Shown here piece by piece: positions 4,278 to 21,769 of a DNA stretch of 64,000 nucleotides. Positions within the stretch are counted from its first letter, which is position 1, and each line of letters begins with the position of its first letter. Both the position numbers and the translations under genes were made by a program. The stretch comes from Alphaproteobacteria bacterium (lineage in GTDB: Bacteria > Pseudomonadota > Alphaproteobacteria > UBA8366 > Aestuariispiraceae), in assembly GCA_030065235.1 (NCBI GenBank), contig JASJDC010000007.1, positions 62,001-126,000 of the forward strand. Reading direction: 5' to 3'. The notes below the pieces were generated by a model. The model searched no databases. It was not told where the DNA came from and worked only from the letters and a program-made list of their open reading frames with translations.

Positions 4278-4346
4278 CTCACGAGCTTCAGAAGAAGCGC
4301 GCGGACAGAAGTTCGCATTCACATAAGTCCAGAAAGGATGACTGAC

Positions 4347-6511: not shown

Positions 6512-6643
6512 GTTCAGTTTGGACTGGTCAATTGAGGATGGAATCGCGCACACTTGCGATGCTCAAAGGGCGGTGCGCAGGGATCTCCCGCGCCCCGGCG
6601 CGGCGCAAGCGCACCCGTGCTGTACGGATGGTCGGAAAACGCC

Positions 6644-8521
6644 ATGATGCAGAATGAACAAGAGGCCCGCCGCCTGTTGGACTCGGCGCTGGTCAAGCTT
6701 GAGCAGGATGATCCCGCGGCCGCCATCGCTATGACCGAACAGGCGCTGGTGCTGACCCCGCAATCCCCAATGGCGGTTCATATTCTCGGCCTGACGGCCA
6801 TGCGGATGCAGGAATTGCTGCGGGCGGAAGAACTGTTCCGGCTGGCGCATGATCTGGCCTCTGACGCGCATGCCCATTGCGAGGCGTTGGCCATCGTCAG
6901 CGCCCGGCTTGGGCGGCTGCAGGACGCGCTCTTCTTCGGCAAGATGGCCGGCGCCATGCCGCCTGATGCGGACACGGCGCAACTGTTGCCAACCTGGTTC
7001 GGCAGTTTCGAGGACGCGCTTTACAGCATGGACCGCGGCAACAAGTACGAAGCCGCTCGGAAACTCTTGGATGCAGGCGATCTAGCGCAGGCGGTCGACG
7101 CTTTTCGAGCCGCCGCCGAAGCGGATCCCAAAGACCAGCGGTGCTGGCGCGGCCTGCGCGACAGTCTGTTCTTCGACGGCAGGCCCTTTGATGCGCTCCT
7201 AGCGGGTCAGGCGTTGTCCTCCGGCGGCGCGCCGGAACCGGAGGATTTGTCCCGCGCGGCCTCCATTCTGACGACAATGGGTAAACTCGAAGAGGCGCAG
7301 GCCTGCCACATCATGGCCGTGGAACAGCGGCCGGCGGACGCAGTCATTCGTTCCGCTTTGATTGCGGACCTGGCGGTGACGCCGTCGGTTTCGATCGACG
7401 AGTTGCGCAAGTCCGAACGGCTCTGGGAGATCAGCTTTGCACGCGAAAGAGTATCGCCAGAGCCGCACGACAGCTCGATCCTGCGGGTCGGTCTGCTGTC
7501 CGGCAACTTGGTTGAGGGGCGCGGCCTCGAGGCGATTTGGCCATTATTCTCGGCGCGCAAAGCGGCCGGCGTCGAGGTTCATGTCTATAGCAGCACGCTG
7601 AAGCAGAATTCGCTGTCGCGCCGGGTCGCCGAGGAAGCGGACGGCTACACCGATATCCGCCGGCTCGACGACATGACGTCGGCGCGCATTCTGGCGAACG
7701 AGGAATTGGACATTCTGATTGATCTGGACGGACACGCCGCTGGCGGACGACCGGGCCTCGTCGCGGCGCATCCGGCCCGACGCGCGGTGCGCTGGTTCGG
7801 CGTCCCCGATCCGGAATCGCGCGTCTTTGACGCTTGGGTCGGCATGGACGGAGTGACATCGGCTGATGGGTCGAAAGTTCCACTTTCCGGCGTCCTGGTT
7901 CCGACCGCGCCGCGTGCGGCGCTCAACCCGACTCGTTCGCTTGGAGATGTGCTCTCCATCGGCGTCGCGGCGGGCGCCCGGAAATTGGATCGCGCGGCAA
8001 TCATGCGCATGGCGGAATTGGCGCAAGCGCAGCCGCGCGCGTCATTTGTTCTCAACGCCGAGGGGCTGGGCGGTGCGACAGGCGTCGATGAATTAGAGAA
8101 TGCGCTGAATGATTTCGGGCTGTTGGATAGGGTCGTCTATAGTCCGCTCGGCGACGCGCTGGCTGGGTCTATCAAGAATTTCATCGACGCGTCAGATCTG
8201 GTTCTTGATCCTGGACCGGACGGGGACGTATCGGTCGCGCTTGCCGCCCTCTCCGTCGGGCGCCCGATTTGCGTGTTCAGCCATGGCGCGCCGGTCAATC
8301 TTCAGGTTGTGTCCCTTTTGCTGTCGCTTGGGCTGCAGGACTCGATAGCCCAGAATGAGGATGCGCTCTGGGGCTTCGCGGCGGCGATCTGCGCCAATCC
8401 GGACACGCTTGAACAGGCGTCCGCTGTGCTATGCGACCGCATGAACGCGTATCGCGCCAATGATGAGGCTACGGCGCTCTCTGAGGGCTTCCTCGAAAGC
8501 CTGCGTCAGCTGGCGGAGTAG
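6644..8521 (+). CDS. TPR/SPINDLY-type O-linked glycosyltransferase, FlmG-like
   Basis: The 625-residue product has two parts. Residues 1-250 are tetratricopeptide-like helices (AAIAMTEQALVLTPQSPMAV is a typical unit). Residues 280-620 resemble the GT41 (O-GlcNAc transferase) catalytic domain: DILIDLDGHAAGGRPG at about 356 matches the DGH-T-x2-x-R motif, and DLVLDPGPDGDVSVALAALS matches the nucleotide-sugar loop. The WLGYPGTTG segment of classical OGTs is replaced by WFGVPDPESR, so the active site is divergent. In Caulobacter, FlmG of this architecture adds pseudaminic acid to flagellin. I start at ATG 6644 (MMQNE) after CGGAAAA, because the longer frame begins with atypical sequence. The maf gene follows 10 bases later. 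Confidence 0.85.
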   Translation: MMQNEQEARRLLDSALVKLEQDDPAAAIAMTEQALVLTPQSPMAVHILGLTAMRMQELLRAEELFRLAHDLASDAHAHCEALAIVSARLGRLQDALFFGKMAGAMPPDADTAQLLPTWFGSFEDALYSMDRGNKYEAARKLLDAGDLAQAVDAFRAAAEADPKDQRCWRGLRDSLFFDGRPFDALLAGQALSSGGAPEPEDLSRAASILTTMGKLEEAQACHIMAVEQRPADAVIRSALIADLAVTPSVSIDELRKSERLWEISFARERVSPEPHDSSILRVGLLSGNLVEGRGLEAIWPLFSARKAAGVEVHVYSSTLKQNSLSRRVAEEADGYTDIRRLDDMTSARILANEELDILIDLDGHAAGGRPGLVAAHPARRAVRWFGVPDPESRVFDAWVGMDGVTSADGSKVPLSGVLVPTAPRAALNPTRSLGDVLSIGVAAGARKLDRAAIMRMAELAQAQPRASFVLNAEGLGGATGVDELENALNDFGLLDRVVYSPLGDALAGSIKNFIDASDLVLDPGPDGDVSVALAALSVGRPICVFSHGAPVNLQVVSLLLSLGLQDSIAQNEDALWGFAAAICANPDTLEQASAVLCDRMNAYRANDEATALSEGFLESLRQLAE

Positions 8522-8531
8522 CGGCGCGTCG

Positions 8532-10445
8532 ATGAGCGCATCCCGTCTGGCGGCCAATATTGCGGCCTTGCGGTCCCGTCAATCCGCCCTTGCCGCCCGT
8601 GTCCAGGCGTCGTCGCCGCGGGCCGCGGATGACACGGCGGAGACGCGGGCGGCGCTCGACAGTTTCTTCGCCAATCTCCCGGCCAATCGGATTTCGGTCG
8701 GCTGGCCGAAGGTCCCCGATGACGCGCGCCTCTTGACCCAGCGCGTCTGGCGCCGGGGCATGGCGCTTATACCGGCGCCGCCCGACCCGCCGCCGGCCGC
8801 GCCGTTGGAGCCGGACGCCGGCGCCTTGCTGGTCTTCGGCCTTGGGTCGGGCGCGCAATTGACCCGGCTGATGGAGGCTTTGCCGGTGCGGTCTGTTTTT
8901 GTCGTTGAAGCAGACCCGGCCGCATTGGCCTCCGCCTTGACTGCGCTCGATCTTCAGTCCCTGTACGAAACTCAGAGACAGCGCGGCGGCCGGCTGGAAT
9001 TCGTGATCGGTGAGACGCCGGAGATGGCGGCGAGCTACCTGTATTTCACGCTTCGCGCGCAGGAATACGGGCTGATTGACGGGTCCTATATCGTCTTCCT
9101 GCCGACCAACGATCACGTTGCGCAGACGCGGGAGCGATTCCTGGCCAAACTCCCGCACCTTGCGAGCGCGCCGGGCTTCATCGAAGACGAAGCTGCGATG
9201 GTCGTGAACTATGTCGAGAACACGGTGCGGTTCCCGGGCGCGGTTCTGAATGCGCAACCGCGACCGCCTCACCGAACGCCGGCTGTCATTGTCGGGTCTG
9301 GCCCATCTCTCGATGGATGCCTGGACTTTGTCGCGGCGCAACGGGAGTCGAGTGTGGTCTTCAGCAGCGGCACAGCGCTAGGGCCTTTACTGAAGCGCGG
9401 AATAAAGCCCGATTTCCAGGTGGCGACAGAGAACACGCCGGGGACCGGCGCGTCTATCGCGCTCTGCGCAGAGGACCATGATCTGTCCTCGATAACCCTC
9501 TTGGCGTCCAATACGGTCCATCCGCAGGCGAGCCGATATTTCGACTCGCGGGTCTATTTCTTCCGGGACACCGTTTGTTCCTCGGCGCTGTTCGGCGCTG
9601 ACTTCGGCGAAATGTCCTATACGGCGCCGACAGTGTCGAACGCCGCCGCGGCGTTGGCGATCGCCCTAGGCTTTAAGGATTTATTGCTGGTCGGGGTGGA
9701 CCTCGGCGCGGGCCAGGGGAAACCACATCACGCAAGTTCCTCCGTCTATTACGAACGGCTGGACGTCCTGCCGCAGGCTGACGAGATCTCGGCGATTTAC
9801 AACTTTCCTTACGAGACGCCCGGCAATTTCGGCGGCGCGGTATGGAGCAACGACAGTTTCAGATCCGCGATCCAGAATTTCGCCTTTCTGTTCGAGCGTC
9901 ACCCGTCGGTCCGAGTGCGCAATCTCAGCGACGGCGCTCTAATTCCGGGGGCCGACCCTTGCATGCCGGAATCCGCGACGATGGTCGGGTCGCCAACTCT
10001 GAAACAATCCGAGTTGCGGCGCTTGTACGATGCGTTGGAGCGCCCGGACGAGACGGTGTTGGTTCCGTCAGGACGAATCGACGGGTTCGATCGTGCGTTG
10101 CGGACGATCGTCGGCGGATTGGATGCGGCGCTGGCCTCGGAGGTCGGGCGGCCGCCCGATCTCTGGCGGCTATATGACAGGATCGCAGTATTGGTGAACG
10201 GGGAGGCGGCGGACCCGCCTGATAGCGCAGCGCGCCGGACGGTACGCGGCGCAATCATGACCATTTTCACTTTCCTGCATCAGGCCTATCGCCGATTGCC
10301 GCCTGGCGAGGGTCGGGAGCGCTTCTACCAAGACTACCTGCTCGAGATGCGCGCCGCGGTCTCGGAGATGGCGGACCAGACCGCCGACACGGTAGCGAGG
10401 CTGCGTGCATTGTTGAGGGATCGCGGTCTTGAGGCGCACGCCTGA
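8532..10445 (+). CDS. Maf-type motility accessory glycosyltransferase (DUF115)
   Basis: The 637-residue product has the MAF_flag10/DUF115 core. AVIVGSGPSLDGCLDF (about 251-266) holds the GSGPSL nucleotide-binding motif, GIKPDFQVATENT follows, and NAAAALAIALGFKDLLLVGV is the conserved helix-strand before the DLG motif. Maf proteins transfer CMP-activated nonulosonic acids such as pseudaminic acid to Ser/Thr of flagellin. I use ATG 8532 (MSASRL), 10 bases after the preceding stop, rather than an earlier in-frame ATG inside that gene. Its TGA overlaps the next ATG (TGATG), so it is translationally coupled to the asnB-like gene. Confidence 0.9.
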   Translation: MSASRLAANIAALRSRQSALAARVQASSPRAADDTAETRAALDSFFANLPANRISVGWPKVPDDARLLTQRVWRRGMALIPAPPDPPPAAPLEPDAGALLVFGLGSGAQLTRLMEALPVRSVFVVEADPAALASALTALDLQSLYETQRQRGGRLEFVIGETPEMAASYLYFTLRAQEYGLIDGSYIVFLPTNDHVAQTRERFLAKLPHLASAPGFIEDEAAMVVNYVENTVRFPGAVLNAQPRPPHRTPAVIVGSGPSLDGCLDFVAAQRESSVVFSSGTALGPLLKRGIKPDFQVATENTPGTGASIALCAEDHDLSSITLLASNTVHPQASRYFDSRVYFFRDTVCSSALFGADFGEMSYTAPTVSNAAAALAIALGFKDLLLVGVDLGAGQGKPHHASSSVYYERLDVLPQADEISAIYNFPYETPGNFGGAVWSNDSFRSAIQNFAFLFERHPSVRVRNLSDGALIPGADPCMPESATMVGSPTLKQSELRRLYDALERPDETVLVPSGRIDGFDRALRTIVGGLDAALASEVGRPPDLWRLYDRIAVLVNGEAADPPDSAARRTVRGAIMTIFTFLHQAYRRLPPGEGRERFYQDYLLEMRAAVSEMADQTADTVARLRALLRDRGLEAHA

Positions 10446-12328
10446 TGTGCGGGATCGCAGGCCATATCGGTGGGCGCCCGGCCGGCGCGCGTGTGGCCGC
10501 TCGCGTTCTGGCGGCGATGCGCAACCGGGGACCCGACGGGTCCGGCTGGATAGCGGCGAGCGTTGGACAGACGCCGGTCGCGCTGTTCCACACCCGCTTG
10601 GCGATCCTTGATCCGGAAGCGCGCTCGGATCAGCCGTTTGTCCGGGACGGCCTGACGCTGATCTATAACGGCGAGCTCTACAATCATCATGCGCTTCGCC
10701 GCGATCTCCAGGCCCGGGGAGCGCGGTTCACGACCGAAGGCGACACCGAGGTTGTATTGGAAGCCTACCGGCAATGGGGCCGCGCGGCGGAAGAGCGCTT
10801 TGAAGGCATGTGGGCGCTGGCCCTGTTCGATTCACGCGCCGGTTCGCTCTGGCTCAGCCGCGACCGGTTCGGCGAGAAGCCGCTCTATCTCTGGCCGTAC
10901 AGAGGCGCACTCTATTTTGCATCCGAAATCAAAGCCTTGGCGGCGATGGCGGGCGCTTGGCCGGATGTGAACCGACGCCAGATCCGACGCTATTTGGTGA
11001 ACGGCTACAAAGCGCTCTATACGCGCGGCGAGGGATTTTATGAAGGCGTCAGCGAGCTGCCGGCGGCGCATTCGTTGGAGATTATGCTGTCCGGACTGGA
11101 TGCGGACCGGCTGTCCCCCAAGCCCTATTGGCGATTATCTTATCAGCCCGAGGAGATCAGCGCCGAGGCCGCGCAGGAGCGCGTTGACGCGCTCGTCGAG
11201 CAGGCGATCGACCGGCGGCTGCTCTCGGACGCACCTCTGGCGATCCGGCTCAGCGGCGGCGTCGATTCCAATGTCATCGCCGGCGTCGCGCTGAAGAAGT
11301 TTGGACGGGACGTCGCGACCTTTTCGGCGATCAGCGACGATCCGCGCTATGATGAATCGGCGGCGATCGATGAAGCGGCGCGTTACTTCAATGGTCGCCA
11401 TCATCGGGTTCGGATCGCCAAGGCTGGGTTTCTCGATCGGCTGACACGTATGGTGAATGCGTTCGACGGACCGCCGATGACGATCTCCTACTACATCCAT
11501 GCACTGGTTTCCGAGGCGATCCACGAACGCGGCTACAAGGTCGCCTTGGGCGGAACCGGCGCGGATGAAATCTTCACAGGCTACTATGACCATTACCTGT
11601 TCTGGCTGGCGTCACAGGCGGCGCTCGATACCGGGGCCGGAGCGGCCGAGCGTCACGCCGACCGCGCGGCGGCGTGGCGGGACAGCTACGGCCAATTTGT
11701 GCGAAACCCATATCTGCAGAATCCGGAGGCCTTTATCGACGCGCCAGACGATCGGCGGCACATTTTTCTTGGGGCCGACCGGTTCTCGGGCTTCCTAAAA
11801 GCGCCCTTCGACGAATCGCATGAAGAGCGGGCCTATTGCGACGACATTCTGCGCAATCGCATGCTGAACGAGATCGGCGCGGAGACGGTGCCGGTCATGC
11901 TGCATGATGATGATTTGGCGGCGATGATGGTTTCGGTCGAAAACCGGGCGGCCTTTCTCGACACGGACCTCGCCCGTTTTCTCTTCACCGTGCCAAGTCG
12001 GCATTTGGTGCAGGATGGACTTCCCAAAGCTTTGCTGCGGAAGGCGGGGAGAGGCCTGGCGCCGCCCTCAATCCTCGAGAATCCGCGCAAGCAGGGGATC
12101 AACGCCCCGGTCGGCGATTTCGTCGACTTCGCGGATCCCGATGTGAAGGAGCGCATTCTGTCGGACGGTCCGCTCTATGACATCGTCGATCGCGGCAAGG
12201 TTGAAGCCCTGCTGGGCTCGGCGCTGTCGGTTAACAGCGAGAGCAAGTTTGTCTTCTCCCTGATCTCCGCCAAACTATTCTTGGATCGTCAGGCCGGCCT
12301 CGCCGCCGCGCCCTTGGGCGACGCTTAG
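10445..12328 (+). CDS. Asparagine synthase-like glutamine amidotransferase
   Basis: The 627-residue product is a class II amidotransferase plus synthetase. Cys2 is the N-terminal nucleophile (MCGIAGHIG), followed by RGPDGSGW and YNGELYNH of the glutaminase domain. LSGGVDSN (about 269-276) is the ATP-pyrophosphatase P-loop, and GGTGADEIFTGY completes the active site. Homologues in surface-polysaccharide and flagellin loci often amidate sugars or uronic acids rather than aspartate. It overlaps maf by one base and precedes a PseA/WbpG-like gene, so it might form the sugar amide or supply ammonia. The substrate cannot be read from sequence. Confidence 0.9.
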   Translation: MCGIAGHIGGRPAGARVAARVLAAMRNRGPDGSGWIAASVGQTPVALFHTRLAILDPEARSDQPFVRDGLTLIYNGELYNHHALRRDLQARGARFTTEGDTEVVLEAYRQWGRAAEERFEGMWALALFDSRAGSLWLSRDRFGEKPLYLWPYRGALYFASEIKALAAMAGAWPDVNRRQIRRYLVNGYKALYTRGEGFYEGVSELPAAHSLEIMLSGLDADRLSPKPYWRLSYQPEEISAEAAQERVDALVEQAIDRRLLSDAPLAIRLSGGVDSNVIAGVALKKFGRDVATFSAISDDPRYDESAAIDEAARYFNGRHHRVRIAKAGFLDRLTRMVNAFDGPPMTISYYIHALVSEAIHERGYKVALGGTGADEIFTGYYDHYLFWLASQAALDTGAGAAERHADRAAAWRDSYGQFVRNPYLQNPEAFIDAPDDRRHIFLGADRFSGFLKAPFDESHEERAYCDDILRNRMLNEIGAETVPVMLHDDDLAAMMVSVENRAAFLDTDLARFLFTVPSRHLVQDGLPKALLRKAGRGLAPPSILENPRKQGINAPVGDFVDFADPDVKERILSDGPLYDIVDRGKVEALLGSALSVNSESKFVFSLISAKLFLDRQAGLAAAPLGDA

Positions 12329-12339
12329 AGGAGCCGCGC

Positions 12340-13491
12340 ATGCAATATTGCCGACGATGCGTTCTTCCCGACACGAGACCCGGCGTGGTCATCGACGCGG
12401 ACGGGGTTTGCAGCGCCTGCCGCGGAGCGGAGGATAAGACCGACATCATCGACTGGGCCGCGCGCGCCGCAGCGTTTGAGCGGCTGGTCGCCATGGCGAA
12501 GGAACGCGCGACCGGCTATGATTGCATTGTGCCAGTCAGCGGCGGCAAGGATAGCTGGTATCAAGTCATCGAGGCCAAGAGGCGCGGCTTGAGCGTGCTT
12601 GCGGTCACCTGGCGGACCCCGGGTCGTACAGCGGTGGGCCAGCGCAATCTGGACGCCATGGTCCGTAATCTCGGCGTCGACCACATCGACTACACGATCG
12701 ATCCTGATGTTGAGCGTCGCTTCATGAAGGCGGCCTTCGAGGAACTCGGCGCCACCGGACTGCCGATGCATATGGCGTTGTTTGCGATCCCGATCCGGCT
12801 GGCGCTGCAATGCCGTGTGCCGTTGATCGTCTGGGGCGAGAATGCGCAATTGGAATATGGCGGCACGGCGCTTGAGCGGCTGGCGATGCATCTGGATCGA
12901 GACTGGCTGGCGAAACATGGCTGCCTGCAGTCGACCGATTGGACCGACTGGGTCGGGAAAGAAGGTCTGACCGAGGCTGATCTGACCGCCTATCGCATCC
13001 CCGACGCGCTTGATGCGGCGGATTTCAAAGTGGAGTCGATCTTTCTAGGCTCCTTCTTCCGATGGGATTCCTTCGAGAATGTGCGGACCGCCGCCGAACA
13101 CGGCTTCGTTTCCAGCGCGGCCGACCGAAAGACCGGGACCTGGGACTTCGCCGATATCGATTGCGACTTCATATCGCTGCATCACTTCCTGAAATGGCAC
13201 AAGTTCGGGATCACGCGCAGCTTCGACACTCTGTCCGTCGAGATCCGCACTGGTCGGCGCGACCGGGCCTCGGCGATCGACGCGCTGAAGCGGCGAAACT
13301 GGGAGGCGCCGCTCGAGGACATCGCGGCCTTTTGCGCCTTTCAGGACAAGCCGCTTGATTGGTTCTGGGAGATTTGCGAGCGCCATCGCAATCCAACGAT
13401 CTGGCGCAAGACGGGGGATATTTGGCGCATGCCCGGCTTCCTGATCAAGGACTGGGATTGGCGCCAGAGTCAGCCGCCGGCGGAGGCCTGA
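12340..13491 (+). CDS. N-acetyl sugar amidotransferase, PseA/WbpG family
   Basis: The 383-residue product has CRRCVLPDTRPGV and GVCSAC (Cys4, 7, 24, 27), which probably bind zinc, and a PP-loop SGGKDS at about 67-72. This is the ExsB/TilS-like ATP-pyrophosphatase fold of WbpG and PseA. These enzymes make the acetamidino group on pseudaminic or 2,3-diamino sugars, adenylating an amide and adding ammonia. WbpG works with a HisH/HisF-like ammonia donor pair; none is present here, and the adjacent asnB-like enzyme is the only glutaminase nearby. A spacing of 11 bases from the preceding gene indicates an operon. Confidence 0.88.
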   Translation: MQYCRRCVLPDTRPGVVIDADGVCSACRGAEDKTDIIDWAARAAAFERLVAMAKERATGYDCIVPVSGGKDSWYQVIEAKRRGLSVLAVTWRTPGRTAVGQRNLDAMVRNLGVDHIDYTIDPDVERRFMKAAFEELGATGLPMHMALFAIPIRLALQCRVPLIVWGENAQLEYGGTALERLAMHLDRDWLAKHGCLQSTDWTDWVGKEGLTEADLTAYRIPDALDAADFKVESIFLGSFFRWDSFENVRTAAEHGFVSSAADRKTGTWDFADIDCDFISLHHFLKWHKFGITRSFDTLSVEIRTGRRDRASAIDALKRRNWEAPLEDIAAFCAFQDKPLDWFWEICERHRNPTIWRKTGDIWRMPGFLIKDWDWRQSQPPAEA

Positions 13492-13495
13492 GGCG

Positions 13496-15031
13496 ATGGA
13501 GATGGCGGCCTGCGCCTATTGCGACAGCAACGACTGGCGTTTGCTCGCTGCGTTCGACGCGCCGCCGCCGGGCGAGACGGATTTCGGCGTTAATCCCTAT
13601 CACCGATCGCTTTGGCGCTGCGGCGGGTGCGGGCATATCGTGAATGTTCAGGATTTCGACCCGGCCGGCCTGTATGACGCCGCCTATTGGGACCGCACCT
13701 ATGGCGGCGACAAAATGGCGGCGACCTTTCGCAAGATCATGGCCCTGCCGCCGGACAAATCGGACAATCGGGCCCGTGTCGCCCGTGTCCGGGATTTTGC
13801 CGATGGCGGGTTGCAGGGGGCGCCGCTCCGGCGTTTGTTGGATGTGGGGTCCGGCTTGGCTGTATTCCCCGCCGCGATGAAAGAGGCGGGCTGGGACTGC
13901 ACCGCTCTGGACCCCGACCCGCGCGGGGCGGCGCATGCGCGCGCTCTGGCCGGCGTGGCCGGCGTCGCGGGAGATTTTATGAAAGTCGGCGATCTTGGCC
14001 GGTTCGACGCGATATCCTTCAACAAAGTTCTGGAACATGTGCCCGACCCGATCGCCATGCTGCGCCGGGCGGCGGATTTCCTTGCGCCTGGCGGCTTCAT
14101 CTATGTCGAATTGCCCGACGGCGAGCGGGCGATTGCGTCCGGACCGGATCGAGAGGAATTCTTCATCGAACATTACTGCGCCTTTTCCGAGGCGTCATTC
14201 CACGCCCTGGCTGAGCGCGCCGGCTTTCAAGTCTCGGCGTTCGGCCGGTTGGTCGAGCCGAGCGGCAAATACACCCTGTACGGTTTTCTCGCGGGGCCCG
14301 ACAGCGCCACGCCTCCGGGGATCGAAGAGTCGCCCTTTGAGGCCCGGTTTCTCGGCGGGCCGGTCTATCGCGTATTGGAACTCTCCGCGCTTGATGAAAC
14401 GGGGGACTATTTGAGGCGCAGCGGCGCAGCGCTTGTGTTCTATCGTGGCGTGCCGAACGCCGCTCAGGAGACGGCGCTGCGCCGGGCCGGGTTTCGGCGC
14501 GTTGAGACATTGGTGACTTTCAGCAAGCCGATCGCCGCGCGAAAGGCCGAGGCGGCGGACGCCGTGCGGGTGCGGCCGGTGCGCCCGGCGGATATCGATC
14601 CCTGCCGTCGTTTGGCTGAAGCCGGCTTTCCCTTCAATCGGTTCAACGCCGATCCGGCGCTGTCGACCGAGGCGGCGTCGGCCCTGAAAGCGGCCTGGAT
14701 CGAGAATGACATCGCCGGACGCGCCGAGGCGGTTCTCATTGCAGAAGCGGCGACCGGCGACGCCAGCGATATGGAGGGCGGCGTGGCTGGATTCTGCGCT
14801 GTCCTCTTACGTGACGGGTGCGCCGTGATCGATCTGATCGCCGTCCATCCAGCGGCGCGTCGGTCCGGCGTCGGCCGGGCGCTGGTCGCCGCGGCGGAAG
14901 CGGGTTTTCGCGGCAAGGCCGAAGCGATCCGCGTTGGGACTCAAGAAACGAATACCGGCTCGATGCGGTTCTATAGAGCGCTGGGTTTTGAAAAGGAAGA
15001 CCGGGCCGAAACTTGGCATTGGACGCCTTGA
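13496..15031 (+). CDS. Fused SAM methyltransferase and GNAT acetyltransferase
   Basis: The 511-residue product has three zones. Residues 1-50 carry CxxC pairs (Cys6/9 and Cys42/45), as in the zinc-binding N-domain of sugar C-methyltransferases. Residues 110-250 are a class I SAM methyltransferase (LLDVGSGLAVF, then FNKVLEHVPDP and LAPGGFIYVELP). Residues 357-511 are a GNAT fold (VRVRPVRPADIDP, HPAARRSGVGRALV with the acetyl-CoA loop, and NTGSMRFYRALGFEK). The GNAT half recalls PseH/WecD-like amino-sugar acetyltransferases. Both domains keep cofactor motifs. GGAGG lies 9 bases before ATG 13496; a second ATG at 13502 is possible. It is the last gene of the plus-strand run and converges on the 115-residue gene. 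Confidence 0.85.
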   Translation: MEMAACAYCDSNDWRLLAAFDAPPPGETDFGVNPYHRSLWRCGGCGHIVNVQDFDPAGLYDAAYWDRTYGGDKMAATFRKIMALPPDKSDNRARVARVRDFADGGLQGAPLRRLLDVGSGLAVFPAAMKEAGWDCTALDPDPRGAAHARALAGVAGVAGDFMKVGDLGRFDAISFNKVLEHVPDPIAMLRRAADFLAPGGFIYVELPDGERAIASGPDREEFFIEHYCAFSEASFHALAERAGFQVSAFGRLVEPSGKYTLYGFLAGPDSATPPGIEESPFEARFLGGPVYRVLELSALDETGDYLRRSGAALVFYRGVPNAAQETALRRAGFRRVETLVTFSKPIAARKAEAADAVRVRPVRPADIDPCRRLAEAGFPFNRFNADPALSTEAASALKAAWIENDIAGRAEAVLIAEAATGDASDMEGGVAGFCAVLLRDGCAVIDLIAVHPAARRSGVGRALVAAAEAGFRGKAEAIRVGTQETNTGSMRFYRALGFEKEDRAETWHWTP

Positions 15032-15051
15032 CGGCGGGCCAGACCACGGGG

Positions 15052-15399
15052 TCAACCCGGCGGGACGTCCTCGTCGAGCCAGGCCTCGACCACCATCTCC
15101 TGGTCGGCGCAATAGGCCTCGAACGCCGCCGTTTTCGCTGGATCGACGATCAGCACAAAGCGCATGCCCGTGGCTGTGCTGCGGGCCAGCGCGGTGCGAA
15201 GGCCGATGCGCTTCAGCCGGCCGTTGGTCGACGGGGTGGCGTAGAATCCCCAATCTTTGGCTGTGACGTCGTATTCCTTGCCTTCGGGCCCGGTAAAGGT
15301 CACGAACTCGCCGGGTTCAAGCGCTACATCGGCGCAATGGCTTAAGGTCACACCCTTGACCGAGAAGCGCCGCGGCGGATCCTTGCGGTCGATCTTCAT
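15052..15399 (-). CDS. Unknown small protein in sugar operon
   Basis: The 115-residue soluble product reads as mixed beta/alpha (LSHCADVALEPGEFVTFTGP, YDVTAKDWGFYATPSTNGRL, GMRFVLIVDPAKTAAFEAYC). It has no signal peptide or membrane span. Third codon positions are GC-rich as in its neighbours. It begins 22 bases after the cytidylyltransferase stop on the same strand and is the last gene of that operon. I do not recognise the family. Context suggests an accessory of nucleotide-sugar synthesis or transfer. Confidence 0.7.
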   Translation of the reverse strand: MKIDRKDPPRRFSVKGVTLSHCADVALEPGEFVTFTGPEGKEYDVTAKDWGFYATPSTNGRLKRIGLRTALARSTATGMRFVLIVDPAKTAAFEAYCADQEMVVEAWLDEDVPPG

Positions 15400-15421
15400 G
15401 GTTCGGGCCGCCGCTCAGCCG

Positions 15422-16120
15422 TCAGCTCTTGCCGCCCCATCGGTCCGCCATCTCAATCACGTCATCGACGCTCGCCGTAACCGGATCGTCGAGATGCTCG
15501 AACACCCAGGCCGCCCGGTCGTAGTCGGTCTGCGTGTCCACGGCGATCGAAATCCCTTCATACCGGTCATCCCCCGCATGCAGATTCTCGATCTGGTACA
15601 TAGATTCGTTCTCGTAGAAGAACGCGGTCACATGCTCGAGATAGCGCAGGTCCTTGGTCGTAATGGTCAGGCGCTGAAGCGCGGTGGTGCTGATCGCCTC
15701 GGCGCTGCAGCCGATGGGAAATGACCTTGGATGGACATTTGTGGCGATGTCGGGGCGTTCCGACAAATACAGGTCAATCACGCGATCGACGACCTCTGGG
15801 TCGATGAACGGGCTGTCGCCGCAAATGCGCACAAACCATTCCAAGCGATGCTGACGGGCGCATGCGAAGCATCGGCCGGCCACATCTTCGCCGGCCCCGC
15901 GAAAGACCGTGACGCCCAAGTCCTTCGCAAAGTCGGCCAGCAAATCGTCTTCCGGCGATGTGGTGGTTGCGAGGATGATCTGGTTCAGATGTTTGGATCG
16001 GCGCAGACGTTCAATGGCCAGTTGGATGATCGGCATACCGCCCAGATCCAACAGGGCCTTTCGAGGCAGTCGGGTGGACGCCAAACGCGCCAGAACCACA
16101 AAAGCGGCTTTTTCCCGCAT
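15422..16120 (-). CDS. SpsF-type cytidylyltransferase (CMP-sugar synthesis)
   Basis: The 232-residue product begins AFVVLARLASTRLPRKALLD, the (Q)AR-x-S-T-RLPGK signature of SpsF-family nucleotidyltransferases, followed by ICGDSPFIDPEVVDRVIDLY, the metal/sugar-binding segment. SpsF enzymes resemble CMP-KDO and CMP-sialate synthetases and are taken to activate a nonulosonic or related acid with CTP, giving the donor for Maf or FlmG. A classical NeuA/PseF would begin with ARGGSKR, which this lacks. It is preceded by a 226-base gap from the SDR gene and may have its own promoter, though none is clear. Confidence 0.82.
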   Translation of the reverse strand: MREKAAFVVLARLASTRLPRKALLDLGGMPIIQLAIERLRRSKHLNQIILATTTSPEDDLLADFAKDLGVTVFRGAGEDVAGRCFACARQHRLEWFVRICGDSPFIDPEVVDRVIDLYLSERPDIATNVHPRSFPIGCSAEAISTTALQRLTITTKDLRYLEHVTAFFYENESMYQIENLHAGDDRYEGISIAVDTQTDYDRAAWVFEHLDDPVTASVDDVIEMADRWGGKS

Positions 16121-16346
16121 GATACTCCCTTGACGCGTGCGCTTGGCGCATTGCCTCTAGACGCTGTGAAGATTTAAGCCATTTGAGCGGCGCGTGCCAC
16201 CGACAAGCCGATGACTGCGGGGGGCCGTCGCCTCTACAATCGCTTCAATGAATCCTCCAACAGCGCGCCACGCACGGTTCTATACTGATCAAGCAGAATG
16301 TGTAGGGTGCAAATCTAGCAATATGCAATGAAAATCTCGGAAAGCC

Positions 16347-17426
16347 CTAGGTCAGGTTCGCTTCGCGTTCCGCCCGGCGCCAGGCGTCGACATACCATGC
16401 GCAATACCGGCGATAGCCGCTCTCGATGTCGTATTCGGGTTCGAAGCCCAAAATCCGTTTCGCCCGCTCGGTCGATAGGGTGCCGCGGATCGGTTTTTCA
16501 ACAGCGCGCGGCCGTTCCTCCAGGATCGCTTCCGGCACGATGTCGCGAACGATGGCCGCGATATCGGCGATCGTGCGTGCGTCGCCATAGGTCAGGTTGA
16601 ACGTGTTCGATTGTTCCGGTCCGCCATGCAGCGCCAGGGCTCGAACCTGGCCTTGAACCAGATCCTTGATATAGGTGAAGTCCAAGCGTCCGTCGCCGCC
16701 GCCTTCCAGCAGCAGGGGTTTGCCGGTCAGCGCATTCTCGATGAACATCTGGCTGACCCGGCGCGAGATGCAACGCTCGCCATACAACGCCGAGGGCCGC
16801 ACCACCGTTACGCCCAAGCCATATTGTCGGCGGTAGGTCCGGACCAACCGTTCGCCCATGAACTTGGCGTTGGCGTAGATGCCCTCCGGCCGCGGGAAGG
16901 TGGTTTCGTCGACACTGTCGCCCTTGAAGTCGCCATAGACCGTGCTGGAGGAGAGAAACATCACCTGATTGATCTGGTCTACCTTCGGGCGAACCAACTC
17001 CAAGGTGTTGCGTAAGGTGATCAGCTGCAGGTCGAAACACAGGCCCGGCTCGGCGTTGGCGTCCACGGCGCTGGCGATGGCCGCCAGATGCACGACTTTG
17101 GTCGGCTGAAACTCCTCGAAGACGCGGCTCAGATCGACCAGCAACCGGGCGTCCGCGTTGCGCAAACTGACGCCCTCCGCCCGCAGCAATGCAAAACGTT
17201 CATTCAGGAAGTTGCGATAGGCGGTGCGTTGCACCGTGTCCTGCTCGCCCGCAAAGGCGTTCTCGATCAGGCTGTTGACCATGAGATTGTCGACGATCTG
17301 GACCGTCGCGCCCATCCGGGCCAATTCGAGTGCGAGATTGTGGCCGATGAAGCCGGCGCCGCCGACCAACAGAATGCGTTGATCCCGAAGCATTGGACGC
17401 AACGTGTCATAGGGTATGGCGCTCAT
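16347..17426 (-). CDS. NAD-dependent sugar epimerase/dehydratase (extended SDR)
   Basis: The 359-residue product has the NAD-binding GGAGFIGHN at about 22-30, LSSSTVYGD with the catalytic Ser/Thr, and YANAK as the YxxxK pair. The C-terminal half is typical of GalE/RmlB-like enzymes (GDGRLDFTYIKDLVQG, TFNLTYGDARTI). It probably epimerises or dehydrates an NDP-sugar for the glycan. The exact reaction cannot be read, and it is not a clear PseB (FlaA1-type) dehydratase. It lies 64 bases after the aminotransferase gene in the same operon. Confidence 0.88.
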   Translation of the reverse strand: MSAIPYDTLRPMLRDQRILLVGGAGFIGHNLALELARMGATVQIVDNLMVNSLIENAFAGEQDTVQRTAYRNFLNERFALLRAEGVSLRNADARLLVDLSRVFEEFQPTKVVHLAAIASAVDANAEPGLCFDLQLITLRNTLELVRPKVDQINQVMFLSSSTVYGDFKGDSVDETTFPRPEGIYANAKFMGERLVRTYRRQYGLGVTVVRPSALYGERCISRRVSQMFIENALTGKPLLLEGGGDGRLDFTYIKDLVQGQVRALALHGGPEQSNTFNLTYGDARTIADIAAIVRDIVPEAILEERPRAVEKPIRGTLSTERAKRILGFEPEYDIESGYRRYCAWYVDAWRRAEREANLT

Positions 17427-17490
17427 TGCGGCTGGATCCTCCCGGATTGCTTGCCCATGCCGGCGCTATGCGGATGAGCTAGGCCGGTGT

Positions 17491-18651
17491 TTAAGATGTC
17501 TGCAATACCGCGATCACGGATTGCGCGATATGATGGGCGTCATCTTCGCTGACATGCGGCCCGATCGGCAAGGAAATCGTCTGATCGCCAAGCCATTCCG
17601 CGACGGGATAATCGCCGAATTGCGCGCCATATCGTTCTTTATAGTAAGTGAAAAGCGGCACGGCGCCCGGATAGTGGATCGACGTGCCGATCCCATGCGC
17701 TTTCAACCCGTCCTGCATCCGGGCGCGATCGATCGATCCATCCTTTGGTAGTATTATATTAAAACAATAGTGGGAGGAGATCGACTCGCCCGCTTTGTTG
17801 GGGAAGACATGAAGCGCCGGTTGATCGGCCAGCGCGGTGCGGAGAATCGCATCATTGCGGGCGCGGTCCGCCTGAAACGCGTCGAGCCTTGCGAGCTGCG
17901 CCAGGCCGACCGCCGCTTCGACCTCGCTCATCCGGAAGTTTCCGCCGAGACAATCGACATCATAGAGGCCGGGCCGGGTTCGATCGCCCAGCATCCGATT
18001 GTATCCAAAGGCGCGGCGGCGGCGCATTTCGAAGGCCAGTTCGTCGTCATCGGTGGTCGCCATGCCGCCTTCGATCGAGGTCATATGTTTGACCGGATAG
18101 AAGGAGAAGGCGCCGGCCAGCCCCAGGCCGCCCGCCTTTCTCTCGCCATGGCGCGCGTCCATGGCCAGGGCGCAATCCTCGAGCAGCCAGATCCCGGCCG
18201 CCTCGGCGATCGCCTGAAGCCGGGTCATGTCGCAGGGAAGGCCGAGATAATGCACCGGAATGGCCGCACGTAGGGCCGGTTCGCGGTCGACCGCCGCCGC
18301 AAGGCCGTCGGGGTTCATGTTGCCGGTCCCCGGCTCGACATCAACGAAGACCGGCCGTGCGCCCAGCAATTCGATTGCGTGGGCGGTCGCGACATGCGTC
18401 ATCGCCGGCGCTGCGACCGCGTCGCCTGGTCCGATCCCCTTGCAGAACATGGCGAGATATAGGCCGGACGTGCAGCTCGAGACCGCGACGGCGTGTTTGA
18501 CGCCAACGCGCTCGGCGAAGGCGGCCTCGAAATCGGGCGTCACGCCGCCATGAACCAGGACGCCGCTGTCCAGGACGTCCAGCACGGCCTGCTTGGCGGC
18601 TTGATCGATCATCGGCTTGCCGAAAGGAATGAAAGGACGGTCGGCGGTCAT
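17491..18651 (-). CDS. DegT/DnrJ/EryC1/StrS sugar aminotransferase
   Basis: The 386-residue product is a PLP-dependent sugar aminotransferase. Seen are SSCTSGLYLAMFCKGIGPGD, LLEDCALAMDARHGERKAGG with the cofactor-contacting Asp, and FSFYPVKHMTSIEGGM with the Schiff-base Lys. The family converts keto-sugars to amino-sugars with glutamate (PseC, PglE, WbpE types). Together with the preceding dehydrogenase it matches the oxidise-then-transaminate logic of WbpB/WbpE for 3-amino sugars. It starts 22 bases after the Gfo/Idh gene stop. Confidence 0.92.
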   Translation of the reverse strand: MTADRPFIPFGKPMIDQAAKQAVLDVLDSGVLVHGGVTPDFEAAFAERVGVKHAVAVSSCTSGLYLAMFCKGIGPGDAVAAPAMTHVATAHAIELLGARPVFVDVEPGTGNMNPDGLAAAVDREPALRAAIPVHYLGLPCDMTRLQAIAEAAGIWLLEDCALAMDARHGERKAGGLGLAGAFSFYPVKHMTSIEGGMATTDDDELAFEMRRRRAFGYNRMLGDRTRPGLYDVDCLGGNFRMSEVEAAVGLAQLARLDAFQADRARNDAILRTALADQPALHVFPNKAGESISSHYCFNIILPKDGSIDRARMQDGLKAHGIGTSIHYPGAVPLFTYYKERYGAQFGDYPVAEWLGDQTISLPIGPHVSEDDAHHIAQSVIAVLQTS

Positions 18652-18673
18652 GCTCGAATTCCGGAGAGAAGCG

Positions 18674-19678
18674 TCATAATGTGTTGGCGACCGGAACGGT
18701 ACGCCGAGTCTCGACCGAATCCCAACAGGCGAAACAGATATCCATGACCCGATAGACGTCCCGCGCCGCGACCTGGGGCTCTCCGCCCGTCCGGATCGCG
18801 TTGACGAAGTCGGGCAACAGATCGTTTTTCTCGATTCCCGGATAGGCCGTATCGATCTCCCTCAGGTCTTCCGGCCTGTCGCCCGTGAACAGACGCGCCG
18901 GGCCCGCGGCGTTTTCGAAACTGGCCTTTGCGCCGTAGACGTTCAGCGTGTGCATGATCGGGCGCCGCGTTCCAAAGCTGGTCGCGCTCTTGGCCAAAAG
19001 GTCGCTTTCGAACCGCAGCAGCGACACCATCGTGTCGGGATAGGCGAAATCGGCGCCGCGCGTCAGTTTCTTCGCCGCCATGGCGGAAACTTCGACAACC
19101 TCCTCGCCGGCGATCCAGCGCATCAGGTCGATCAGATGGATGCCGCCGCCATAGGTGACGCAATAGAAATCCATCTTGCCGCGCCAGCCCTCGGTGATCT
19201 TCCACAGGATCTGATGCAGATAGTCCCCTTCCATATAATGCAGGTCGCCAAGCGCGCCTTGCTGGACGCGGCGGCGCAGGTCGATGAAGCGCGGGCTCTG
19301 CCGCAGGATCAGGTTCGATGAGAGCAGCGTGCCGCTGTCCTGGTGCGCGCGGGCGATGCGGATCAGATCCGATCGGTGCAGTGCGATCGGTTTCTCCACC
19401 ATCACATGCAGCCCAGCTTCGAACGCGGCGACCGCTTGATCCGCGTGGCTGTCATCGTGCGAGCAGATCGACAGGAGGTCCAAATCTTCCTGCTCCAGCA
19501 TCTTTCGGAAATCGGTGTAGCCGGCGGGACCGCCCTGGCGCGCCCGCACTGCGTCCAGTTTCGTGGCGTCCGTGTCGCACAGCGCCGCAAGCTCGACGCC
19601 GTCCAACGCGCGATAGCCCGCTGCATGCTGCTCGCCCACACCGAGACCGATGACCGCCGCTTTCAGGGGCTTGTTCAC
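18674..19678 (-). CDS. Gfo/Idh/MocA-family sugar dehydrogenase
   Basis: The 334-residue product has an N-terminal Rossmann fold (AAVIGLGVGEQHAAGYRALD) and the family HVMVEKPIAL motif with catalytic Lys. The helix YGGGIHLIDLMRWIAG carries the conserved His/Asp of the substrate domain. WbpB-like members oxidise a UDP-sugar at C3 before transamination. It starts 54 bases after the flgK stop on the same strand, so it may be transcribed from the flgK promoter, linking sugar synthesis to late flagellar genes. Confidence 0.9.
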   Translation of the reverse strand: MNKPLKAAVIGLGVGEQHAAGYRALDGVELAALCDTDATKLDAVRARQGGPAGYTDFRKMLEQEDLDLLSICSHDDSHADQAVAAFEAGLHVMVEKPIALHRSDLIRIARAHQDSGTLLSSNLILRQSPRFIDLRRRVQQGALGDLHYMEGDYLHQILWKITEGWRGKMDFYCVTYGGGIHLIDLMRWIAGEEVVEVSAMAAKKLTRGADFAYPDTMVSLLRFESDLLAKSATSFGTRRPIMHTLNVYGAKASFENAAGPARLFTGDRPEDLREIDTAYPGIEKNDLLPDFVNAIRTGGEPQVAARDVYRVMDICFACWDSVETRRTVPVANTL

Positions 19679-19732: not shown

Positions 19733-21769
19733 TTAGCGCACGATGCCTTCGAGGATGCCGAGCAATTCATCGACTGTGGACAGCACCCGCGCCGATGCGG
19801 CGTAACTGGTCTGGAGAACCGTTAGGCGGGCCAATTCTTCGTCGAGATTGACGCCGACTTCGTTGCGTAGGGCTTCGGTCAGACTGTCGCGCAGCGTCAC
19901 CGCCCTTTCCGCCGACCGGCTGGAAATCGTTGCTTGCCGTGTGACTTCGACCAAGATCCCGGAGGCGAGACTGGTATAGTCCTCGCGGGTCAGCGATATC
20001 CCTGACCCGGAAATCGAGCGCGTGTTTTCGGTCAGTGCCTCGATCACCGGCGAGGCGACGAGCTTCTTGACCGTCTCGGCGTTGCTGACCAGCGTATCGT
20101 TGACCCGGAAGTTCACCCGGCTGACATCGGTCGGGGTGGTCCCGGCTTCGGCTTCGAAAAAGCGGGCGGCCTCTCCGGTCAGCGTGGATCCTTCCACGGT
20201 GACGACGCCAGCGTTCGTGGTGAAACCCAAGGTCGCCAGAGGGGTGTTCGCACCATCGGTGATCACCAGCGACCCGGCGATGCTGGAGATTTCGAGGAAG
20301 CCGTTCGCGTCGATGCGGGCGCGCACCCCTTCCAGATCGTTCAAGGCGGTCACGACGTCGGCCGCTGTATCGCCCGTGTTGATTGTGATCGTGCTGGCCG
20401 CGGCGCCGCCCACTGACACGGTGAAGGTTGAGGCGTTGGGTATGCTCAACGGCGGATCGGTCAGTACGGTCGTGCTCGCCAAGGCCGCGCCGCCGGTCCC
20501 CACCTCGGCCTGGTAAGCGCGGGCGAAGGTGACCGCCGTCGCCTGGCTGAAAGTCTGCGGCGATGCGGTCACCAGACCGAGCCCCGCCGCCGCACCGCCC
20601 GGATCGGTGATCGTCAGATCGCCCGCGTTCGATAGGATTTGGATCTGCCCCGTAGCGTCGATCCGCGCGTCGACATTGGTCAGCGCGTCGAGCGCGGCGA
20701 CCAGCGCGGCCGCCGTCATGCCGGCGGTGACGGTCGCCGATTGGTTAGAGCCGCCGACATTGACGGTGATGACGTCGCCTGCGTCGACGCCTGTGAAGGT
20801 CGTGATATCGGTGCCGCTATTGACGATCTGCGTACCGGTGGCGGAGGCGACGGAGACATCCACGAAAGAGAAGGCCAATTCATCCAGTTGATTGCGCAGC
20901 TTCTGGAACACCGCGACGCCGTTGGACGTGCTCTGGATCGACGTGGCGTCGGTCGCCAATGTGTTGGTCAGGGCCCGTAACAACCCGTCCGGCAGGGACG
21001 GCAGCAGGTCCGTCGATCCCGAACCGGTCTTGGTCAGTTCAAACGTACCGTCATTGAAGGTGAAGACGCTGGCGACGCTGTCCACCAGATCAAGTCCGGA
21101 GGTTGTATAGACCGCCACCTGTCCGTCGGACCGGTTCAACACGGTCAGGTCGAAATACTGAGCCAGATCGATGATCTCGGCGTCGCGTAGGTTTTCCAGA
21201 TCCGCGATCGGACGGCCAGCGGCGGCTTCGCGCACGATCGTTGCGTTCAGTCGCTCGATCTCGGCCATCGCATTGTTGATGTCTCCAATTGCCGCGACCA
21301 ATTCTTCACGCGTCTGCCGCTCGATAATGTCGAGGCCCGAAGAGATCCGTTCGATCTCCGCCACGATGGCCTGGCCTTGCAATACGACGTCGGTGCGCGC
21401 GGCGTTGCTTTCCGGCGCCGCCTCATACGCTTTCCAGGCCGTTTCGAACTCTTCGATCGTGTCGACCAGAGGCGTCTCTCCGGCGATGGTGCCGGTCAGC
21501 TGTTCGATTAGGCGATAGGTCTCGTCGCGTTTGACGCTGGACGCCGCAGCGGTAATCTCGTTCAGCAACTCGTCGCGCAGGGCGGTATTGGTCAGCCGGC
21601 GGATGGCCGAAATTTGAACCCCGCCATTCTGAACGTCGGTGAAGATCGCCTCTTGGGCGTTATAGTCTTCGTTATTCGCGTTGGCGACGTTCTGAGAAGT
21701 TGTGTTGACCGCCGTATTGACGGCGTTCAGACCCGATACGGCTGCGTCTAAGGCGGAGAGAAGTGACAT
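19733..21769 (-). CDS. flgK: FlgK, hook-filament junction protein 1
   Basis: The 678-residue product has the FlgK N-terminus (ALDAAVSGLNAVNTAVNTTS, then NVANANNEDYNAQEA) and a C-terminal coiled coil (EELARLTVLQTSYAASARVL). The middle contains two copies of a flagellin-IN-like beta unit, about residues 325-400 and 440-515, sharing the pattern V-N/S-VGG...T-A-AD/ALV-x-ALN/D-L...V-x-ARIDA-x-G. These enlarge it beyond typical FlgK. It has its own sigma-54 promoter about 85 bases upstream and is followed closely by sugar-synthesis genes. Confidence 0.94.
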   Translation of the reverse strand: MSLLSALDAAVSGLNAVNTAVNTTSQNVANANNEDYNAQEAIFTDVQNGGVQISAIRRLTNTALRDELLNEITAAASSVKRDETYRLIEQLTGTIAGETPLVDTIEEFETAWKAYEAAPESNAARTDVVLQGQAIVAEIERISSGLDIIERQTREELVAAIGDINNAMAEIERLNATIVREAAAGRPIADLENLRDAEIIDLAQYFDLTVLNRSDGQVAVYTTSGLDLVDSVASVFTFNDGTFELTKTGSGSTDLLPSLPDGLLRALTNTLATDATSIQSTSNGVAVFQKLRNQLDELAFSFVDVSVASATGTQIVNSGTDITTFTGVDAGDVITVNVGGSNQSATVTAGMTAAALVAALDALTNVDARIDATGQIQILSNAGDLTITDPGGAAAGLGLVTASPQTFSQATAVTFARAYQAEVGTGGAALASTTVLTDPPLSIPNASTFTVSVGGAAASTITINTGDTAADVVTALNDLEGVRARIDANGFLEISSIAGSLVITDGANTPLATLGFTTNAGVVTVEGSTLTGEAARFFEAEAGTTPTDVSRVNFRVNDTLVSNAETVKKLVASPVIEALTENTRSISGSGISLTREDYTSLASGILVEVTRQATISSRSAERAVTLRDSLTEALRNEVGVNLDEELARLTVLQTSYAASARVLSTVDELLGILEGIVR

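Follow-up and report, generated by a model that had tools for sequence, protein, structure and literature searches.

Gene content and flagellar setting of the island

The 64-kb stretch of alphaproteobacterial DNA analysed here (the window, on contig C13 of the source genome, G000) carries at positions 10445–19678 (G000:C13:72445–81678) an island of sugar-biosynthesis genes arranged as two convergent sets. The plus-strand set directly follows a gene for a Maf-type flagellin glycosyltransferase and encodes an AsnB-type glutamine amidotransferase, a WbuX-type sugar amidotransferase and a methyltransferase-GNAT fusion; upstream of it stand two flagellin genes, a gene for a tetratricopeptide repeat protein with a glycosyltransferase-41-like domain (TPR-GT41), and the Maf gene itself. 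The minus-strand set begins 55 bp after flgK and encodes a Gfo/Idh/MocA oxidoreductase (Gfo/Idh), a DegT-family aminotransferase, an extended short-chain dehydrogenase/reductase (SDR), an SpsF-type cytidylyltransferase and a 115-aa orphan (Table 1). According to our reading of the open reading frames (ORFs), all named genes are open and full-length, and the gene set is as the first-pass annotation of this DNA had listed it.

Based on these genes and on their relatives, we consider it likely that the island serves to glycosylate flagellin, as a cassette for the synthesis and decoration of a CMP-nonulosonate. The gene families, their conservation across the family, the neighbourhood of flgK and Maf and the clade of the synthase described below are read from the sequence, and from them we infer the order of steps, the regiochemistry and the product. 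The Maf transferase stands beside flagellins and the proposed nonulosonate genes, the arrangement expected for Maf-dependent flagellin O-glycosylation. Maf-dependent flagellar nonulosonates are well known as a kind, and the present gene set is a variant with a biochemical gap; no description of it was found in the open-licence PMC literature, as represented by titles and the openings of abstracts.

A scan of genome contigs with SpsF gave two loci only, and the relatives were taken from a search across genomes instead, in which 55 of the 190 genomes searched (own included) had an SpsF match. We examined the cassette in the 20 genomes other than G000 whose SpsF matches scored highest, 13 of which belong to the same family; together with G000 they form a set of 21 genomes that is selected for SpsF. 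For G000, what is said of the whole genome is based on searches with profiles and proteins. When the fetched stretches of G000 and its 13 same-family relatives are compared, all 14 contain SpsF, SDR and DegT, and 13 each contain Gfo/Idh, AsnB with WbuX, and methyltransferase with GNAT. The SpsF match occurs in 13 of 13 same-family relatives (41–64% identity), the SDR in 20 and Gfo/Idh in 19 of the 21 genomes, so the grouping of these genes is not due to chance. In addition, FlgK adjoins Gfo/Idh in 12 of the 13 same-family relatives.

Some assignments at the locus need qualification. The FlgK homologue was named from a reading of its protein, not by a profile. We take the TPR-GT41 protein to be FlmG-like from its architecture, without an alignment to Caulobacter FlmG, and its start codon is uncertain, an ATG at 6644 fitting as well. 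The first-pass annotation did not mention the 115-aa orphan, homologues of which stand beside SpsF or WbuX in the cassettes of 8 of the 21 genomes, own included (the other loci being L056, L057, L067, L069, L070, L073 and L216, with a tandem pair in L073). As a candidate for the missing hydrolase discussed below, this protein was rejected because it occurs in the cassettes of only these 8 genomes. Single-sequence structure prediction gave a mean pLDDT (a per-residue confidence score) of 39 for the orphan and 34 for Gfo/Idh.

Table 1. Genes of the island and of its flagellar surroundings (positions in the window; bits are profile scores).
Feature	Position	Strand	Evidence
Flagellin, likely acceptor	4338..5249	+	PF00669 46 bits, PF00700 32 bits
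Second flagellin, likely acceptor	5518..6423	+	PF00669 50 bits; PF00700 20.5 bits, below cut-off 23
TPR + glycosyltransferase-41-like protein	6554..8521	+	TPR_2; Glyco_transf_41 27.2 bits, cut-off 25
Maf-type flagellin glycosyltransferase	8460..10445	+	Maf_flag10_N 63 bits, MptE-like 109 bits
AsnB-type glutamine amidotransferase	10445..12328	+	TIGR01536 352 bits, cut-off 267; MCGIAG start, Cys at position 2
WbuX-type N-acetyl sugar amidotransferase, proposed acetamidino formation	12340..13491	+	TIGR03573 290 bits, cut-off 203
Methyltransferase-GNAT fusion	13496..15031	+	Methyltransf_23 79 bits, Acetyltransf_1 51 bits
115-aa conserved orphan	15052..15399	-	Without Pfam or NCBIfam match
SpsF-type cytidylyltransferase, proposed CMP-nonulosonate synthetase	15422..16120	-	PF02348 91 bits
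Extended SDR	16347..17426	-	PF01370 138 bits; GalE-like active site SSSTVYG, without dehydratase Asp/Glu
DegT pyridoxal phosphate aminotransferase, ArnB/PseC-like (C4 type)	17491..18651	-	PF01041 334 bits; PseC 286 bits, cut-off 423.5
Gfo/Idh/MocA oxidoreductase	18671..19678	-	PF01408 75 bits
FlgK homologue, upstream of the Gfo/Idh operon	19733..21769	-	Named by reading the protein

A candidate synthase outside the island

The window has no match to the NeuB, PseB or PseG families at E 0.001, the threshold used for these families and for Epimerase_2 throughout, which agrees with the earlier observation that the island lacks the synthase, dehydratase and hydrolase of the usual pathways. This is not typical of the cassette. 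In 11 of the 13 same-family relatives a NeuB-family gene lies inside it, beside Maf and/or AsnB: in nine it occupies the interval between these two genes, in G010 it adjoins AsnB where the fetched stretch ends, and in G001 it stands between Maf and the methyltransferase. Among the same-family genomes, only G003 and G008, which belong to one genus, and the window have a cassette without a synthase. Where it is gone, Maf and AsnB are neighbours, and in the window the stop codon of Maf and the start codon of AsnB overlap (TGATG), with no gene in between.

The first-pass annotation had suggested looking for neuB/pseI and pseB in the rest of the genome, and such genes are present there. The own-genome searches with the NeuB, PseB and PseG families gave matches on contigs C1, C2, C3, C10 and C12, or none; they include a PseB (C2:280669) and four NeuB-family genes, two of them on C10, one on C1 and one on C2. 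The C10 pair belongs to a separate surface-glycan cluster, and the C1 gene (C1:238980) is of the PseI type (405 bits, over the PseI cut-off). The C2 gene (match C2:801019–801714 within the ORF C2:800932–801945) is isolated, with a chemotaxis receptor gene on one side and a phosphate transporter gene on the other. Its product has the NeuB barrel (PF03102, 217 bits) and an SAF domain (PF08666, 33 bits), and in alignments it keeps the histidines of the SDHT and EKHFT motifs; the SDH and EKH histidines have catalytic roles in NeuB-family synthases. Against the curated models it reaches 268 bits with NeuB (cut-off 400) and 218 bits with PseI (cut-off 340), and the cassette synthases of G009, G007 and G133 are likewise well below both cut-offs. 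By these cut-offs, the cassette-type synthases compared are, as sequences, neither PseI nor NeuB proper.

For the phylogenetic analysis 56 distinct NeuB proteins were collected; three partial ones were dropped for a quick tree of 53 rows, and four further long-branch rows were removed for a tree of 49. The label "cassette" in these trees included both orphans under test, the own C2 gene and an orphan of G003. These two and 16 cassette-located synthases form one clade with a support of 99/97, recovered in 98% of 200 bootstrap trees (49 rows) and with a support of 99 in the quick tree. Inside the clade, the own C2 gene and the G003 orphan group at 100/96 with the synthase of G163, which lies next to AsnB and WbuX in the cassette of another order of the same class (L156), and this group stands apart from the branch of native same-family synthases. 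The C9 synthase of G043, fetched after the trees and judged by identity only, is 54% identical to the cassette synthase of G007.

Since the nearest copies of the C2 gene lie outside the native same-family branch, the native synthase was probably lost and replaced. The sequence relationships are most simply explained by the loss of the native cassette synthase in an ancestor of these genera, whose descendants would rely on a copy of the same cassette type acquired at another place. The replacement of a native synthase by one of another lineage, with the cassette otherwise intact, is a warning against calling pathways from one locus. What had been described as a pathway without a synthase may now be treated as a concrete case with the synthase proposed at a named gene.

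The locus of the C10 pair (L005, G000:C10:70000–90000) is a separate glycan cluster which, in addition to the two NeuB genes, holds a PseF-like transferase (149 of 206 bits), a CBS-aminotransferase fusion, WbuX and a DHDPS-family aldolase-like gene; the neighbours of this WbuX we take to be HisH and HisF. A second Maf-like gene of the genome lies on C9 (locus L022: 6753–7514, 7549–8601, 10236–11582, 12871–14001) near an SpsF paralogue (33% identity), together with an SDR and a gene of the UDP-glucose dehydrogenase family, possibly for another flagellar or surface sugar.

Proposed route and the release of the hexose

We propose the following route. The SDR, Gfo/Idh or both would prepare a keto sugar, perhaps from a substrate already dehydrated by an enzyme encoded elsewhere; DegT would aminate C4 to give a 4-amino hexose, which the WecD-like GNAT domain would N-acylate. 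The hexose would then have to be freed from its nucleotide, a step for which no enzyme was found, before a NeuB-family synthase, probably the product of the gene at C2:801019–801714, condenses it with phosphoenolpyruvate. The SpsF-type enzyme would activate the acid with CTP, WbuX, AsnB and the methyltransferase would decorate it with amidino, amide and/or methyl groups, and the two neighbouring flagellins would receive the sugar from Maf and/or the FlmG-like protein. The earlier suggestion of a decorated nonulosonate with its early steps encoded elsewhere is supported for the synthase, given the gene of the cassette's own clade at G000:C2:801019 and the place of the synthase inside the cassette in most same-family relatives. 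The alternative offered with it, a CMP-sugar of another class, is disfavoured because a NeuB-family enzyme belongs to the cassette.

The name SpsF was taken over from the first-pass annotation, and the assignment rests on PF02348, not on an SpsF profile. The window protein scores 30 of 206 bits against the PseF model; its nearest models are those of Kdo and other cytidylyltransferases, all far below cut-off, the best in NCBIfam being KdsB (weak, 70 of 193 bits), and its best solved match, 6oew, is a cytidylyltransferase. A role as the housekeeping KdsB was rejected, that enzyme being encoded by a different gene at C2:583884. The enzyme is SpsF-type and not of the NeuA or PseF type, as had been noted, yet this is precedented: the Bacillus subtilis sps pathway uses SpsF (PMC7439481), and an SpsF-like domain has been proposed to replace NeuA in a cluster of Vibrionaceae (PMC7371886). 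According to the former report, the B. subtilis spsF mutant still made legionaminic acid in the mother cell and had none on the spore surface, and complementation of the mutant failed (PMC7439481). An SpsF-type gene, so called by its family, and a cassette-clade synthase occur in one genome here, as the Sps pathway requires. SpsF-type activation of nonulosonates is already described and is not new.

The SDR has one match per genome at E 1e-60 in 20 of the 21 genomes, with 77–84% identity within the family. All 20 orthologues have the active site SSS[T/M]VYG with Y-x3-K and lack the acid/base residues of dehydratases (Asp-Glu, or an equivalent pair, beside the active-site Thr/Ser); a motif of this type is like that of 4-epimerases and unlike that of 4,6-dehydratases. 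The SDR was rejected as the missing dehydratase on this motif (20/20), so the gene labelled an epimerase earlier is indeed there and cannot be counted as that enzyme. For DegT, the best-scoring NCBIfam model is PseC and the best solved match is ArnB (1mdo).

Gfo/Idh was found in all of the 21 genomes except G086 and G012, the contig of the latter ending just after DegT. In enzymes of the inositol-dehydrogenase type, the Lys of the EKP motif and the Asp and His of Asp-x3-His have catalytic roles. The EKP Lys is kept here. Four residues before the active-site His, the aligned solved chains 3cea, 4h3v and 3e18 have the Asp, and all 19 orthologues have Gly at that position (GGG[IV]H), as part of a highly conserved block (GDY...LxK....WRG...FY...GGG[IV]H..DL). 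Because of this replacement, the protein is unlikely to be a plain inositol-type dehydrogenase.

Of the decoration enzymes, AsnB keeps its N-terminal Cys and may donate an amide nitrogen or amidate a carboxylate. We presume that the WbuX-type protein, which exceeds its model's cut-off, resembles PseA, and that PseA and PtmG belong with WbuX. PseA and PtmG are acetamidino-synthases and PtmH is an N-methyltransferase of flagellar nonulosonates (PMC13317340). For the GNAT half of the fusion, the top models are those of WecD (55 bits, short of the cut-off); methyltransferase and GNAT, fused in the window, are encoded side by side by two ORFs in most relatives. In relatives a formyltransferase gene (PF00551) lies between WbuX and the methyltransferase, and a polysaccharide deacetylase (PF01522) occurs in some cassettes from outside the family, as would fit differing N-acyl groups; the window cassette and the compared stretches of its own genome showed neither of them. 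In certain out-of-family cassettes (L068, L073, L019, L020), two DegT genes stand near two or three distinct SpsF genes, which suggests that they make more than one CMP-sugar per cluster.

No dedicated dehydratase is common to the 21 genomes, and this candidate was rejected. PseB is over its cut-off in 15 of them, including an orphan gene in G000 (509 bits); LegB-like genes with at least 400 bits occur in 11 and exceed the cut-off in two, the best LegB score in G000 being 108 of 475 bits; and a long dehydratase (open frame of 630–708 aa) that we take to be CapD-like occurs in all but G000. General UDP-GlcNAc 4,6-dehydratase activity (CapD-like in 20 genomes, PseB in G000) may supply the 4-keto sugar, and the case for a missing 4,6-dehydratase is weaker than that for a missing hydrolase. 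PseG had no match in G000 at E 0.001, the same search being positive in Caulobacter and B. subtilis controls, and Epimerase_2 (the NeuC/LegG type, LegG being a member of this family) had none either. For an Sps-type route in G000, no SpsG (PseG-like) match was found and only PseB scores high as a dehydratase; SpsM was not searched for. The orphan PseB and the PseI of G000, without a PseG match, may be the remnant of a pathway.

Among the 21 genomes, PseG has a match in 12 (over cut-off in four) and Epimerase_2 in nine, while G000, G007, G008, G086 and G133 have neither at E 0.001. We regard G000, G007 and G133 as the clean cases, because G086 has no orthologue of the SDR or of Gfo/Idh either at the cut-offs applied, and G008, of lower completeness (94%, with 7% contamination), carries a LegB-like gene (425 bits). 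In G007 all core genes of the cassette are present, at several separate places, with a single NeuB and no PseB or LegB over cut-off. G133, of another family, has a single NeuB and a compact cassette in the order SpsF, DegT, SDR, formyltransferase, deacetylase, NeuB, Gfo/Idh, GNAT, AsnB, WbuX, orphan, methyltransferase. In these two genomes no hydrolase of the PseG or Epimerase_2 models can therefore serve the cassette.

The unsolved step is narrowed to the release of the hexose before the condensation with phosphoenolpyruvate. A speculative and rather doubtful idea is a route without a PseG, SpsG, NeuC or LegG hydrolase, in which the Gfo/Idh protein with its altered site and the GalE-like SDR free the hexose and perhaps 2-epimerise it. 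NAD-dependent GH109 glycosidases of the Gfo/Idh type use oxidation, elimination and hydration on glycosides; by analogy, oxidation at C3, elimination of the nucleotide across C1–C2 and hydration would be conceivable here, and the product could be a 9-hydroxy (non-6-deoxy) diamino nonulosonate. If Gfo/Idh or the SDR did release the hexose, searches based on PseG and NeuC would miss such producers. As for the earlier suggestion of an undescribed system, the missing synthase is best explained by relocation, and a gap at the release step remains.

Several observations weigh against the proposed nonulosonate cassette. The C2 synthase is 38–42% identical to the cassette synthases of its own family and about 50% to its nearest relatives, it is tied to the cassette by clade and not by position, and the three other NeuB paralogues (C1 and the two on C10) could serve in its place. 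The synthase of G008 is unassigned (a fragment at a contig edge with mixed best matches), the only NeuB of G109 falls outside the clade, and so does the SpsF-linked NeuB of G178, on a long branch. To these is added the lack of any PseG or Epimerase_2 match in G000. Furthermore, the flagellin of Shewanella oneidensis is reported to bear what is likely pseudaminic acid, in a species where no clear orthologues of PseH, PseG, PseI and PseF were found (PMC3765264), and this makes a missing orthologue alone weak evidence for new chemistry.

The S. oneidensis case, where PseG, PseI and PseF are among the orthologues not clearly present (PMC3765264), also speaks for ordinary pseudaminic acid made by scattered pse genes, with DegT as PseC, GNAT as PseH, SpsF as PseF and the remaining genes for decoration. 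The own PseB and PseI are both over cut-off, PseC is the top NCBIfam model for DegT, and dispersed pse loci do make pseudaminic acid in Caulobacter crescentus (PMC7591256). We nevertheless hold this to be quite unlikely: PseG is absent from the G000 matches though the Caulobacter control was positive, the DegT score falls far short of the PseC cut-off, the cassette-type synthases stay under the one for PseI, and the cassette occurs in genomes without a PseB over cut-off. Moreover, G001, G002, G003 and G009 have PseB, PseG and a PseI-type synthase within about 17 kb (the PseG of G003 being below cut-off), away from the flagellar cassette. The first-pass annotation had itself set a complete pathway to plain pseudaminic or legionaminic acid elsewhere against its proposal; the presence of PseB and PseI goes part of the way towards such a pathway, but PseG and Epimerase_2 had no match, and no complete one was found.

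The hydrolase would not be needed in G007, G133 and G000 if the SDR, DegT and Gfo/Idh modified a finished nonulosonate, for example by amination or epimerisation at C8 or C9 of the free or CMP-linked acid, and the hexose came from general metabolism. Remodelling after the synthase does exist (EpaA/EpaB and AciE, with 8-epimerisation in Acinetobacter; PMC12053666), and two different SpsF and two DegT genes stand together in some cassettes (L068, L073). However, EpaB, which shares 41.5% identity with AciE, is a short-chain enzyme from a different family (PMC12053666). DegT and GNAT resemble enzymes acting at C4 of nucleotide sugars (ArnB, PseC, WecD), and nothing was found that would supply a free 2-acetamido hexose, which leaves this explanation unlikely. 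An eight-carbon pathway, in which a Kdo8N-like amino octulosonate is made from Kdo and SpsF is a second Kdo-type cytidylyltransferase, would fit the weak KdsB score of SpsF, and the known Kdo8N route includes a DegT-type aminotransferase. In that route, however, KdnB is a metal alcohol dehydrogenase and not a Gfo/Idh protein, the housekeeping KdsB is separate, and the relatives have a NeuB-family synthase within the cassette, so that we find this pathway very improbable.

Comparison with known systems

The proposed CMP-nonulosonate cassette may be compared with four described systems. The legionaminic acid pathway of B. subtilis (SpsM-SpsC-SpsD-SpsG-SpsE-SpsF; PMC7439481) shares with it an aminotransferase, an N-acetyltransferase, a NeuB-family synthase and an SpsF-type cytidylyltransferase. 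In contrast to that pathway, the present cassette has no dehydratase and its genome no PseG/SpsG-type match; it has in addition Gfo/Idh, a GalE-like SDR, AsnB, WbuX and a methyltransferase, and its setting is flagellar, whereas that of the sps genes is the spore coat. Campylobacter jejuni, with legionaminic acid decorated by PtmG/PtmH and pseudaminic acid by PseA (PMC13317340), shares the decoration by acetamidino-synthase and methyltransferase and the Maf protein. Here, however, the LegB-, PseB-, PseG- and PseF-type proteins lie, where found, outside the cassette, Epimerase_2 has no match in the genome, and AsnB and Gfo/Idh are additional.

C. crescentus shares flagellin glycosylation with a TPR-type glycosyltransferase and scattered pathway genes (PMC7591256), but it is reported to lack Maf and uses FlmA (PseB) and FlmD (PseG), the latter without a match here. 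In the nab cluster of Vibrionaceae (PMC7371886), an SpsF-type domain is likewise proposed to take the place of NeuA; it follows a PseC homologue and precedes a dehydrogenase gene. In that cluster the domain is linked to an aldo-keto reductase, and the passage that describes it names no AsnB, WbuX or Gfo/Idh, all of which accompany SpsF in the island described here.

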